From Cycloclasticus sp. (GTDB taxonomy: Bacteria > Pseudomonadota > Gammaproteobacteria > Methylococcales > Cycloclasticaceae), in assembly GCA_040743155.1 (NCBI GenBank), contig JBFLJU010000001.1:620001-684000 (forward strand): 64,000 nt of DNA. The letters run 5' to 3'. Below the pieces are notes generated by a model. That model was not told the DNA's origin. It searched no databases and saw only the letters and a program-made list of their open reading frames with translations. Shown here piece after piece: positions 23,451-37,888 of this stretch (the first letter of the stretch is position 1; every line of letters starts with the position of its first letter). Position numbers and translations under genes: made by a program.

Positions 23451-23456
23451 GATATA

Positions 23457-23497
23457 TGGCTCCTCCAACTGGACTCGAACGAGTGACCCAATGATTA
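23457..23497 (-). repeat. Diverged partial tRNA-Asn copy (old attachment site)
   Basis: 41 bases match the 3' part of tRNA-Asn (as at 37813-37853) with two mismatches and no anticodon. The flanking terminator also matches the one at 37770. It is best explained as the scar of an earlier integration event at the same tRNA gene. Confidence 0.8.
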
Positions 23498-28017: not shown

Positions 28018-28025
28018 CTTCGTAA

Positions 28026-28072
28026 ATGGCTCCTCCGACTGGACTCGAACCAGTGACCCAATGATTAACAGT
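28026..28072 (-). repeat. attL: 47-bp copy of the tRNA-Asn 3' part
   Basis: Identical over 47 bases to 37812-37858, from the anticodon region to the CCA end of tRNA-Asn. Sequences diverge at once beyond both ends. It marks the left boundary of the integrated element; the integrase gene starts 187 bases inside. Confidence 0.93.
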
Positions 28073-28203
28073 TATAAGTACCATTTTATTTATACGCCTT
28101 TATTTGTATGGCTAAAGCATTATAAACCTTAGGTTTATATGTATATTTAGCGTCTATTTAAAACTACCAAAATATCCATAAATACCCTAAGATGTTCTTT
28201 AAA

Positions 28204-28258: not shown

Positions 28259-29473
28259 ATGGATAAAACGTTCTTATTTACACATGAAAGGCTAAGTAAA
28301 TTACCGATACCTAAGCAGGGTAGAGTGGAATATTTTGATACTAAGCAGCAGAAGCTTAGGCTTAGAGTTTCAGTTTCAGGAGTTAAGTCTTTTGCTGTTG
28401 TAAAGAAAGTTCATGGAAAACCCAAAAGGGTGACTGTAGGTAAGTGGCCGGAAATTTCCATAGCAAAAGCTAGGGAGGAGGCTATTAAAATCCTTGATGA
28501 CTTACGGCAAGGTGTTGACCCTGTTAAAGAGAAACGTAAAAAATCTCTTGAAAGTACAGTGTTAAGTGATGTTTTAGAAATGTACCTTACAGAGCGCAAG
28601 CTAAAGCCAATAACCAAGGAAGGTTATCGTTACAAATTACAGCACAGTTTCAAATCATGGCTGGATAAGCCCATCAATAGTATCTCTGAAAAAATGGTTT
28701 TAAAACGCCATAAGGAATTAACAAAAATTGGCGCAACAACGGCTAATACTTCCATGAGAGTTTTACGCTTAACGATGAACTATGCCCATGCTATCGGCTT
28801 GGTGGGTGAAACGCCCACATCAATTTTAAGTAGAGCAAGGTTATGGCACAAACCGAAACGTAAAGACCGCGTGATTCATAGCAAAGAATTAAAAGCTTGG
28901 CATGTAGCAGTGGAAGCCTTAAACAATGAAAAGGCGAAGGTCTATTTGTTGATGATTTTATACATGGGGTTTAGAAGTAGCGAAGCATTAACGTTGGAAT
29001 GGGAGCATGTAGATCTACTGGAAAAGAGTATCACGCTGTATAACACTAAAAATGGAACAAACCACACCTTACCCATACCCAATGCCTTAATGCCATTCAT
29101 GGAGTCTTTATTTAGCCTTACAGGGAGTAGCAAATGGGTGTTTCTTTGGAGTAAGCCGATCAGTAAGAAAAACACTCCTGATAAGCCCATGAGCCTACCT
29201 AAAAAACAAATTAAAGCTGTTATCGATGCCAGTGGTGTTGAGTTTAGCCCGCACGATTGCAGGCGTACTTTTGCAACGATTGCTGAGGCTGTACATTTGC
29301 CCCTAATGATGACTAAACGGTTAATGAACCATGTCACCACAAATGATGTTACAGGCGGTTATATCGTTACAGAAGAAGAAACACTACGGGCTGCCATTAA
29401 CAAGATAGCTGGCTACATTCAGGCCAAAGCCACCCGCAAAGACAACGTTATTAAGTTAAATGTTGTTAATTGA
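28259..29473 (+). CDS. int: Tyrosine-recombinase integrase (P4-like, DUF4102 N-terminus)
   Basis: Site-specific recombinase for the tRNA-Asn element. Seen: N-terminal arm-binding domain (residues 1-95: 'QKLRLRVSVSGVKSFAVV...RVTVGKWPEISIAKAREEA'); a core-binding domain (100-185); catalytic residues Arg239 (GFRSSEAL), Lys264, His332 and Arg335 (SPHDCRRTF), His358 and Tyr368 (GGYIV). All are present, so it looks active. 404 residues fits the P4 integrase family. A GAGG site is close to the ATG. It sits 187 bases from the left attachment copy, transcribed inward. Confidence 0.95.
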   Translation: MDKTFLFTHERLSKLPIPKQGRVEYFDTKQQKLRLRVSVSGVKSFAVVKKVHGKPKRVTVGKWPEISIAKAREEAIKILDDLRQGVDPVKEKRKKSLESTVLSDVLEMYLTERKLKPITKEGYRYKLQHSFKSWLDKPINSISEKMVLKRHKELTKIGATTANTSMRVLRLTMNYAHAIGLVGETPTSILSRARLWHKPKRKDRVIHSKELKAWHVAVEALNNEKAKVYLLMILYMGFRSSEALTLEWEHVDLLEKSITLYNTKNGTNHTLPIPNALMPFMESLFSLTGSSKWVFLWSKPISKKNTPDKPMSLPKKQIKAVIDASGVEFSPHDCRRTFATIAEAVHLPLMMTKRLMNHVTTNDVTGGYIVTEEETLRAAINKIAGYIQAKATRKDNVIKLNVVN

Positions 29474-30407: not shown

Positions 30408-30605
30408 ATGAGCAATACACAGCACTTTATTACCCCTGAACAAGCAGCGAAATACTTGAGTATTTCAGTTCGCACTCTTGCGAAATGGCGAAGTATCGGT
30501 CACCCCAACATTCCATACTCAAAAATTGGAAAGTGCGTTCGTTACCGCCAGTCTGAACTTGATGCTTATCTGTCTAAGCATTCTCATAATTGTGTGGGTG
30601 ATTGA
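30408..30605 (+). CDS. AlpA-like / excisionase-type HTH protein
   Basis: A 65-residue MerR-like winged-helix DNA-binding protein of the HTH_17/AlpA kind. Seen: 'ITPEQAAKYLSISVRTLAKWRSIGHPNIPYSKIGKCVRYRQSELDAYL', the complete fold. In P4-like elements and PICIs such proteins activate int or act as excisionase. A GAGAG-type site precedes the ATG. The next gene starts 1 base after its stop. Confidence 0.88.
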   Translation: MSNTQHFITPEQAAKYLSISVRTLAKWRSIGHPNIPYSKIGKCVRYRQSELDAYLSKHSHNCVGD

Positions 30606-30606
30606 A

Positions 30607-30897
30607 ATGCCTGATTCAAAACCATCTTCAAATAAGCCTATGACAAAGAATGAGCGCGTATTTAAAGCTCTAATGTCAGGCGGAAGCTTTAACCGCTTTG
30701 AGGCTTCTACGCTGCTTCATGATTCCTGCCTTAACAGTACGGTAGCCACGCTGGAGCAGAAGCACCGAATAACCATAAGTAGAAAGTATGAAACGGTACG
30801 CGGCTATATGGGGAATCCTACAAAGTGTTGTAGATATTGGATTGCTGAAGAAGAAATTAAGCGTATAGAAGAAAATCAGCTTCAGCTAAACGGCTAA
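30607..30897 (+). CDS. Small HTH-like protein
   Basis: 96 residues, starting at the ATG right after the AlpA-like stop; a longer reading in the same frame overlaps that gene and is unlikely. Seen: 'NERVFKALMSGGSFNRFEASTLLHDSCLNSTVATLEQKHRI', which reads as a small winged-helix motif, then 'VRGYMGNPTKCCRYWIAEEEIKRIEE'. Similar short proteins are common in phages and islands, often without a named function. Co-transcribed with the AlpA-like gene. Confidence 0.7.
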   Translation: MPDSKPSSNKPMTKNERVFKALMSGGSFNRFEASTLLHDSCLNSTVATLEQKHRITISRKYETVRGYMGNPTKCCRYWIAEEEIKRIEENQLQLNG

Positions 30898-30929: not shown

Positions 30930-31334
30930 ATGAAGAGAGAAAAGGTAACAGGGCGTAGGGATGCCGGTAAGTACTTTGGCTTGCCTCATGCTGTTATGGA
31001 CTCTCGAAATTATTTACAACTGAGCGCGCAGGCAGTGAAGTTATTAAATGATATAGGTCGACAGTATGGGGGCTTTAATAACGGTGATTTGTGCGCGACT
31101 TGGTCAATGATGGCAAAACGTGGCTGGAAGTCACGAAATACATTATTCAAGGCGTTACAGGAGCTTTTGTATTACGGGCTAATCATTAAATCAAAGCAAG
31201 GTGGGAAACATGCGCCAACACTTTATGCCCTTACATGGCAGTCAGTTGATGAATGTAAAGGCAAGTTGGATATAAAAGAAACAATAAGACCTCTTGGTGA
31301 TTGGAAGACAGATAAGCCTAATATGAAAAATTGA
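30930..31334 (+). CDS. Winged-helix protein, candidate replication initiator
   Basis: A 134-residue basic protein. Seen: 'YLQLSAQAVKLLNDIGRQYGGFNNGDLCATWSMMAKRGWKSRNTLFKALQELLYYGLI', a clear winged-helix layout of the kind found in small replication and plasmid control proteins. Iteron-like repeats begin only 6 bases after its stop, so binding those repeats is an attractive inference. No primase or helicase lies nearby. The ATG lies after a GAAGAG-type site. It could equally be a transcription regulator. Confidence 0.7.
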   Translation: MKREKVTGRRDAGKYFGLPHAVMDSRNYLQLSAQAVKLLNDIGRQYGGFNNGDLCATWSMMAKRGWKSRNTLFKALQELLYYGLIIKSKQGGKHAPTLYALTWQSVDECKGKLDIKETIRPLGDWKTDKPNMKN

Positions 31335-31339
31335 ATCGG

Positions 31340-31473
31340 TGACACGCATAGAGAGCAGATTGACACGTATAGAGTGTTAATTGCTCAAATATTAAATGGA
31401 AAACCATATTAATTGACACGCATAGAGAGTTAATCAGGTTGTTTTTCTGAGATTAATTAACACGCATAGAGAG
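31340..31473 (+). repeat. Four iteron-like direct repeats (consensus TGACACGCATAGAGAG)
   Basis: Copies start at 31340, 31361, 31414 and 31458; three match the 16-base consensus at 15 or all positions and the second at 14. Start spacings of 21, 53 and 44 bases are near whole helical turns. They lie in the 212-bp gap after the winged-helix gene. Probably an origin of replication or an operator array; the spacing is too uneven and the sequence too unlike for CRISPR. Confidence 0.85.
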
Positions 31474-31546
31474 AACCTTAATAAATAACCATGGGTGTGA
31501 GGATAGAGGACTCATATTATTAATTTACTTGTAACAAGAGGCTTGT

Positions 31547-32104
31547 ATGAGCAGACGTAAAAAAATAGAAACATTAGCACTAAGAAGCAAAATAGGAAGG
31601 TTGTACCTATCGAAGAATACTCAAGCAGAAATAGGAGAGGTTGTTGGGTTAACTCAGCAGTCAGTTAGTTTGCACTTAAAAGAATTACAAAAGGAGTGGA
31701 TTGAAAGCGCTAATAAGGACTTTAATTTATCTAGGGCTATAGAGCTGGCAAAGATAGACAGACTTGAAGCAACTGCTCATGTCGCATGGGAGGCATCACG
31801 CAAAGATAAAACAACTGAAAGCATAGATACTGTGTCTGATGTAGAAGTTAAGACTCAAACACGAACACAATCGCAATATGGAAACCCACGGTTCTTAGAC
31901 CTTGTTCTTAAATGTATAACTAAGCGTTGTGAGATTCTTGGTCTTAATGCGCCTACTAAATTAGCAGCCACTACACCTGACGGTAAACGTCCAGAGAAAG
32001 GCATAGGGCTTGTTGGGTTACTGCGCGAAGCTGAACGCCTTAAGGCCGAAGATGCGAAGGAAAAGGAAGCAGAGGAAAAGAAAGCTGCAAATAAAAAGCA
32101 TTGA
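31547..32104 (+). CDS. HTH protein of phage terminase-small-subunit type
   Basis: 185 residues. Seen: an N-terminal HTH ('NTQAEIGEVVGLTQQSVSLHLKELQKEW', residues 24-51); 'ELAKIDRLEATAHVAWEASRKDK'; 'YGNPRFLDLVLKCITKRCEILGLNAP', a block recalled from phage proteins annotated as terminase small subunits; a highly charged C-terminal tail (Lys/Glu/Ala). PICIs use such proteins to redirect packaging of a helper phage. Packaging function is inference; a DNA-binding regulator is the alternative. Confidence 0.7.
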   Translation: MSRRKKIETLALRSKIGRLYLSKNTQAEIGEVVGLTQQSVSLHLKELQKEWIESANKDFNLSRAIELAKIDRLEATAHVAWEASRKDKTTESIDTVSDVEVKTQTRTQSQYGNPRFLDLVLKCITKRCEILGLNAPTKLAATTPDGKRPEKGIGLVGLLREAERLKAEDAKEKEAEEKKAANKKH

Positions 32105-37804: not shown

Positions 37805-37811
37805 GATATAT

Positions 37812-37858
37812 ATGGCTCCTCCGACTGGACTCGAACCAGTGACCCAATGATTAACAGT
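37812..37858 (-). repeat. attR: 47-bp repeat inside tRNA-Asn
   Basis: Identical to 28026-28072. It covers the anticodon region to the CCA end of the functional tRNA gene, so the element restores the tRNA on integration. Confidence 0.93.
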
Positions 37859-37888
37859 CATTTGCTCTACCAACTGAGCTACAGAGGA
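37813..37888 (-). tRNA. tRNA-Asn(GTT)
   Basis: 76 nt on the minus strand. Acceptor TCCTCTG pairs with CGGAGGA (one mismatch/wobble); D arm TAGCTCAGTTGGTAGAGC; anticodon loop with GTT; T loop GGTTCGAGTCC; discriminator G and encoded CCA. It is the integration target of the element on its left. Confidence 0.97.

Follow-up and report, generated by a model that had tools for sequence, protein, structure and literature searches.

What does a small winged-helix gene followed directly by four helically phased repeats do in an integrated element that carries no recognizable primase? The window, a stretch of 64,000 nucleotides from a Cycloclasticus sp. contig, contains an island of 9.8 kb, and a sequence-only reading had interpreted the gene and the repeats within it as a minimal replication module that would make the element a very small replicon. 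Our analysis indicates that positions 30930-31495 are probably the replication module of this island, which is integrated at a tRNA-Asn gene. The module is predicted, with fairly good confidence, to be a lambda-O-like iteron origin whose initiator is cut down to the DNA-binding domain.

A 53-bp repeat corresponding to the 3′ part of tRNA-Asn bounds the island on both sides. The left attachment repeat (28023-28075, no strand assigned) shares 96% identity with its counterpart in the tRNA-Asn gene at the right end, where the right attachment repeat (37809-37861) overlaps tRNA-Asn(GTT) at 37813-37888 (together 37809-37888, reverse strand). Between them, the forward strand encodes a tyrosine integrase of 404 aa (28259-29473; Phage_integrase, E = 3.6e-16; Arm-DNA-bind_3, E = 5.6e-15), an AlpA/excisionase-like HTH_17 protein of 65 aa (30408-30605; HTH_17, E = 1.1e-12; phrog_66, E = 5.2e-9), and a 96-aa HTH_39-like protein (30607-30897), for which the ATG start is our choice and the Pfam match (E = 0.011) lies below the cut-off. 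They are followed on the same strand by the 134-aa winged-helix protein, the proposed initiator (30930-31334, coordinates including the stop), and by an HTH protein of 185 aa (31547-32104) with weak HTH matches. The family of the latter is labelled "RNase E" in PHROG. Of three phage records inspected, two have the homologue one and four genes ahead of an annotated large terminase, and in the third the next gene is annotated as hypothetical. Given this terminase neighbourhood and the weak HTH matches, a small terminase is likelier than an RNase E.

The 13 island ORFs scanned against Pfam matched no primase or helicase family, so the description of the element as primase-less holds for these ORFs; the scanned ORFs likewise matched no P-like loader and no ParA family. 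A KAP-type NTPase at 35113-36795 matches the candidate defence family PDC-S49 (E = 1e-22) and has a homologue in the flank of one related locus (L069). Outside the island, the 3′ part of tRNA-Asn recurs once more as an incomplete copy at 23453-23497; thus, the region of 23.5-28 kb may represent an earlier insertion into this hot spot. By eye, the genes in that region are two antiporter-like ones and one of LysR type. We searched 17 further genomes of the genus, several of which are incomplete, and none has the 134-aa protein, which suggests that the island was acquired recently or is patchily distributed.

The repeats themselves were found just as first described: four copies at spacings of 21, 53, and 44 bases, with the first one 6 bases past the 134-aa gene. 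On the forward strand, TGACACGCATAGAGAG occurs without mismatch at 31340-31355 and 31414-31429, with two mismatches at 31361-31376, and with one mismatch at 31458-31473. With up to three mismatches allowed, these are its only places in the window (chance mean 0.27), and none of 100 dinucleotide shuffles reached four copies. The whole genome at the same tolerance gave nine matches, these four and five scattered ones, as compared to seven for a reversed control pattern; matches cluster at this site only. The left dyad half is conserved in the window repeats and the right half is degenerate, with longer arms (TTGACAC/GTGTTAA) forming a dyad with one mismatch around repeat 2, as judged by eye. Between the last two repeats lies ATCAGGTTGTTTTT (31433-31446, forward strand), the local form of a conserved spacer element described below. 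The fourth repeat abuts a conserved box, which consists on the same strand of box A, AACCTTAATA (31474-31483; family consensus CACCTTTATA), a candidate unwinding element, and, 3 nt past it, of box B, AACCATGGG (31487-31495; family consensus TACCAWGGG). Downstream of the box, we found no further repeat copy in the window up to position 32000. The box, like the two island ends, falls outside the coordinates given in the sequence-only reading.

The 134-aa protein matched no Pfam winged-helix model at E up to 1 and had no meaningful match to any family of Pfam or NCBIfam. In PHROGs, it matched replication initiation O-like families (phrog_18020, E = 6.7e-6; phrog_678, E = 1.7e-4). The same collection, searched with 74 members of the family, returned a DnaD-like helicase loader for 15, three O-like families for 12, 10, and 1, replication initiation proteins for 2 and 1, and two unnamed families for 3 and 1, in tallies where one member may be counted more than once. 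Pfam matches of the 74 members were confined to generic HTH types or families of unknown function, with at most three members matching any single one; RepA_N was not among the seven Pfam families listed at E up to 0.01. The best PDB sequence match was a RepA_N initiator, although a weak one (E = 0.0044). The AlphaFold2 model of the window protein, made with 73 members, is a confident winged helix (mean pLDDT 93.1, pTM 0.85) with a helix at residues 69-82 and strands at 85-89 and 98-101, which upholds the fold proposed from sequence despite the missing Pfam match.

Foldseek found no PDB chain below E = 0.001 for this model; RepA_N initiators (5kbj, 4pt7, and 4pql) were among the best matches, at a TM score of ~0.4, mixed with transcription regulators. 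Seven viral predicted structures fell below E = 0.001, one named a DNA polymerase B fragment and the rest HTH or unnamed, and lambda-O-like and replisome-organizer proteins matched at weaker E values only. By PHROG and fold, the window protein contains an O-type winged-helix DNA-binding domain; it stops after this domain and a short tail, without a C-terminal P-binding domain. A tail fitting the loose form DECxGKLD is present in 62 of the 74 members. Judged by these matches, the weak sequence relatives of the protein are mostly replication initiators. One relative (L082, 7986-8678) has 231 aa and seemingly two tandem winged-helix domains, as seen by eye; its box score is low (15.3), and repeat copies were not found there.

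We then asked where else the gene occurs. Among 369 genomes of the class, 20 gave matches, the window's own included; two of these (E = 3e-4 and 7e-4) were rejected by eye as an unrelated regulator family. Scans with a seven-member alignment yielded 75 loci, mostly from Gamma- and Betaproteobacteria, with one from Thermodesulfobacteriota and some untyped; viral contigs contributed 11 loci to the scan with this alignment. The annotated collections gave one phage record (vB_Pae_U1) and, with another query, a weak partial phage match. Among 72,556 plasmid records, three queries found one with a relative, and this lies inside an integrase-bearing island on a Cupriavidus megaplasmid. The closest relative of the window protein (L034) is 65-67% identical. 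Two loci assigned by eye to an unrelated regulator family (L027 and L028) were removed before the box scan. We gathered 109 loci, of which four (L075, L078, L097, and L108) were left unscanned because the ORF or flank ran past the contig end. The box scan covered the remaining 105, the window being one of them; six copies identical around the box were excluded later, as were nine loci scoring below 14 (11.3, 7.2, 5.3, and six under 3), leaving 90 for later use. Spacing statistics were based on the 74 loci with a significant repeat and co-variation on 74 proteins.

A bipartite box, CACCTTTATA-N2-6-TACCAWGGG, was present after or at the end of the gene in 90 of 99 nonidentical loci and missing in the other 9. 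It was detected by a two-part weight matrix with a cut-off of 14 bits, trained on these same loci; the best of 105 shuffled sequences scored 13.9, and 1 of 76 upstream segments reached the cut-off (16.4). Moreover, the 19 bp preceding the box recur upstream in 74 of the 90 loci (shuffle p <= 0.05, a level that few loci are expected to reach), where shuffling predicts ~7 copies summed over all 90; the other 16 loci showed no significant further copy. This independent recurrence supports the matrix despite its training on the same loci. Searching upstream of the box only, we counted five sites in 1 locus, four in 49, three in 19, two in 13, and one in 8.

The spacings between sites cluster at 21-22, 32-33, 43-44, and 53 bp, that is, at whole helical turns. 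Over 194 spacings, the resultant R was 0.84 at a period of 10.5-10.7 bp, and it was still 0.81 over 119 spacings after thinning to 57 loci that are at most 45% alike, as compared to 0.21 for the largest of 2000 random sets. Thus, the helical phasing noted in the window holds across the relatives as well. Copies stand at offsets of about -63, -106 or -115, and -128 or -138 from the box, and 192 of 198 further copies fall within 145 bp of it. Most lineages carry their own repeats, unlike those of the window, with the last repeat running into the shared box. Many relatives show 13-bp dyad sites, such as TACGG-AAT-CCGTA and CCCGA-TAA-TCGGG. Between the last two sites lies a spacer element, approximately AGTCAGGCC-NN-TTTT (consensus by eye), in which the T run is most clearly conserved. 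Duplex stability was predicted across 230 bp in 80 loci that are no more than 70% alike, and for 60 of them the least stable 15-mer lay within the box.

The end of the box is ~500-645 bp from the match start in 62 of 66 loci, independent of ORF length. As the box keeps its distance whatever the ORF length, the repeats lie partly within the gene in some relatives, as in lambda. Four loci (L041, L042, L043, and L044) have repeats inside the 3′ end of the initiator gene, and the variable protein tail would consequently consist in part of translated repeats. In Pseudomonas phage vB_Pae_U1 (L032, 4221-4826), a gene annotated as DNA primase (DUF3631 match) begins inside the repeat/box region, which suggests that the annotated start may be too far upstream.

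DnaA boxes are present in many iteron plasmids. Exact TTATCCACA occurred in 2 of the 90 proposed origins, in none of 87 upstream controls, and in one of 87 downstream controls, and was thus not enriched; the window has no DnaA box within one mismatch in the 1.4 kb around the box. IHF sites showed no enrichment at the 90 proposed origins either. An exact search for the box alone gave three matches in viral contigs, which we regard as chance: two have identical sequences, inspection by eye shows no repeats ahead of them, and the top protein-family match (E = 0.002, 28 residues) is more than 2 kb away on the other strand. In the 369 genomes, the box alone gave 17 matches in 15 genomes as compared to 24 for a reversed control (counted by eye), and 4 of the 17 lie in genomes with the protein. 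Since such matches are no commoner than the control, the box is informative only beside the gene. Our search of the open-licence literature found no paper describing this module.

The surroundings of the module suit an island. Within the ~7 kb examined, 69 of 89 loci have the integrase cluster and at least 45 of 89 have AlpA-like genes; a homologue of the 96-aa protein directly precedes the initiator gene in 10 of the 88 loci other than the window. The cargo is diverse: if the clusters of integrase, initiator, and upstream HTH genes are set aside, none is shared by more than 10 of 89 loci, and neither 31547 nor 32551 has a homologue in the examined flanks of any of the 88 other loci. The gene-content scan covered 107 of 220 candidate neighbour ORFs, each shared cluster being represented by a single ORF, and its results are given for the 25 most frequent of 103 families; the shared clusters themselves were counted separately. 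Several islands carry apparent restriction systems (clusters 5, 6, and 14, by eye; ResIII, N6_Mtase, and MmeI matches). Of 66 loci, 58 have a same-strand ORF as the first long one downstream.

To examine the link between protein and repeats, we compared their variation. Proteins that are less alike also have less similar sites (Spearman -0.71 for identity versus site distance, 32 nearest pairs), a trend that common descent could produce by itself. Mutual information over 74 members placed columns 70 and 69, in the first turn of the recognition helix, at the top by mean association, and 10 of the top 30 pairs fell in residues 66-77 where 2.8 were expected; the single best pair involved column 15, off the recognition helix (Z = 5.7; permuted 95% level, 5.4). 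By partial correlation, columns 106 and 68 came first with r = 0.29, as compared to a null 95% level of 0.265 and a null maximum of 0.348. Within the 32 nearest pairs, columns 69 and 70 ranked 15 and 24 of 105 (p = 0.14 and 0.21) and were not singled out. The protein-site link is thus not free of shared ancestry. Arginine at position 69 is associated with an ACACG site, which was found at 11 of 12 loci with R69 and at 6 of 62 others (Fisher test, 3e-8, ignoring relatedness); the twelfth R69 locus (L112) has ACACG in the spacer instead of the arm. The closest relative, L034, differs from the window at both residues 69 and 70, and the sites differ too (GACACGCATAGAGAG against AGTACGCATAGCGAG). 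The co-variation is suggestive, and the 134-aa protein likely binds the repeats.

The same arrangement could in principle be a regulatory array, in which a winged-helix transcription factor sits on the repeats and the box is the -10 element of a promoter, activated or repressed, for downstream cargo or late genes. Box A indeed resembles a -10 element, and in the window TTAACA-N17-AATAAA, a weak candidate with 9 of 12 matches, overlaps repeat 4. A promoter would also explain the same-strand downstream ORFs, and many of the PDB folds similar to the model are transcription regulators. Promoter likeness at the box averaged 7.37 as compared to 6.09-6.56 at 20 other offsets; however, the excess over shuffles of the same segments was small (7.37 against 6.83), 5 of 90 loci reached a score of at least 9, which is close to the 3.8% obtained with shuffled sequences, and a strict promoter scan of the window found none at the box. 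Furthermore, the gap between box A and box B varies from 2 to 6 nt, unlike a promoter, the downstream genes vary from locus to locus, and the sequence relatives of the protein are mostly initiators. We therefore consider this reading unlikely, and weaker than that of a replication module.

A second possibility is that the repeats serve only partition, incompatibility, or autorepression, in which case the protein would regulate its own amount or segregation and replication would start at another place. Many plasmid initiators also bind control repeats, and some arrays here lie partly inside the gene. Against this, the array follows the gene or lies at its 3′ end and not at its promoter, the last repeat has a conserved, melting-prone box at a fixed place next to it, and the scanned island ORFs include no ParA family, so that we give this explanation very little credence. 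Least probable of all is a packaging (pac/cos-like) site bound by the adjacent terminase-small-subunit-like 31547, since the array travels with the winged-helix gene and, together with the box, persists in most of the loci whose examined flanks lack a 31547 homologue, even though the repeats lie 74-207 bp ahead of 31547 and its phage homologues are found near large terminases. For the same reason, we rejected the idea that the repeats act as operators for 31547 only, which the sequence-only reading had named as the outcome that would count against it.

Thus, we favor a replication module. The earlier proposal of such a module is strengthened by the initiator-like relatives of the protein, by phased repeats conserved with the gene, and by a melting-prone box at a fixed place. 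Two hallmarks of iteron-type origins are present, namely repeats in helical phase and an A+T-rich element (~15 bp) beside them. Weighing against an origin are the initiator's lack of the C-terminal, helicase-recruiting part of lambda O and the absence of a P-like loader or primase among the matches in the island. The further claim of a very small replicon is too strong, as no plasmid replicating by this module turned up among the 72,556 records, where the one relative found itself sits in an integrase-bearing island. Its near absence from plasmid records suggests that helper or host functions are probably needed, and this, together with the lack of DnaA box enrichment, points to a probable host or helper dependence after excision.

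In the mechanism we propose, the 134-aa protein would act as an origin-binding initiator made of a lambda-O-like winged-helix domain and a short conserved tail. Its dimers would bind the four imperfect dyad repeats, which are phased to one helix face, and the bound initiator would wrap or bend the DNA. The A+T-rich box, placed right after the last repeat and of low predicted stability, would then open. Host or helper-phage proteins, perhaps via the DECxGKLD tail or box B, could load a helicase, and the excised island would be copied. The lineages would have acquired their own repeat sequences under a fixed layout, as expected of replicons pressed for specificity.

The module is more general than could be seen from the window, as it recurs in dozens of bacterial islands. 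In these, the small protein, the four repeats, and the melting-prone box are most likely where copying starts. More tentatively, we suggest a widespread, undescribed class of island replicon that combines a reduced initiator with a fixed scaffold, typically four same-face dyads, the spacer element, and the CACCTTTATA/TACCAWGGG opening box, and in which the repeat letters are re-specified in each lineage; many mutually compatible replicons, possibly evading origin-directed nucleases, might in this way share one host- or helper-dependent loading mechanism. If the replication reading is true, an island can copy itself while encoding no more than a single small DNA-binding protein and a short site of fixed geometry. 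There would also be dozens of natural initiator/repeat pairs for reading the DNA-recognition code and the rules of replicon compatibility, and box plus phased repeats would provide a sequence signature for finding such islands, some of them apparently with restriction systems.

How does the module compare with known systems? PICMIs, as portrayed in the consulted part of PMC10803314, are likewise small satellites with int and alpA; the PICMI model there requires a DUF3987/DUF5906 primase and insertion at fis, whereas our island has neither and sits at tRNA-Asn. PICIs share the integrase, AlpA, and an initiator gene with an iteron origin directly 3′ of it, as their origins (for example, that of EcCICFT073) are placed directly 3′ of rep in the relevant section of PMC6092414. 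In the E. coli PICI origins of that section, an A+T-rich region has an iteron set on either side, and a primase/Rep protein is present, in contrast to the one iteron set on one side of the box and the lack of a matched primase in our island.

Another anatomical parallel is the PLE satellite of Vibrio cholerae. In the portions of PMC7145576 and PMC8263062 that deal with it, RepA has no predicted primase or helicase activity and binds semi-palindromic iterons, replication requires the helper phage, the DNA-binding domain and the origin co-vary, and one replicon type is cut by an origin-directed phage nuclease. The module has the same anatomy, an initiator without predicted helicase or primase and satellite iterons. 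The protein, however, belongs to a different family than PLE RepA, with its weak RepA_N sequence match and no RepA_N in Pfam. PLE RepA also keeps a C-terminal domain, and PLE uses a serine recombinase, in contrast to the tyrosine integrase and AlpA-like protein found here.

The domain itself resembles that of lambda O. In the passages of PMC5043065 and PMC7466680 concerned, O dimers bind four inverted-repeat iterons inside gene O, beside an A+T-rich region. The PHROG O-like matches of the window protein cover the winged-helix N-terminal domain, and the module, set beside those passages, shares four iterons and an A+T-rich element, with dyads that are clear in many relatives and degenerate in the window. 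Unlike lambda O, the window protein lacks the C-terminal P-binding part, and the island lacks a P gene; unlike in lambda, the repeats are 2-5 helical turns apart and are accompanied by a conserved spacer element and a bipartite box, and the repeat sequence is lineage-specific. Thus, although iteron origins are already known, what would be new here is a minimal, DNA-binding-only initiator combined with a conserved scaffold in which the recognition sequence changes.
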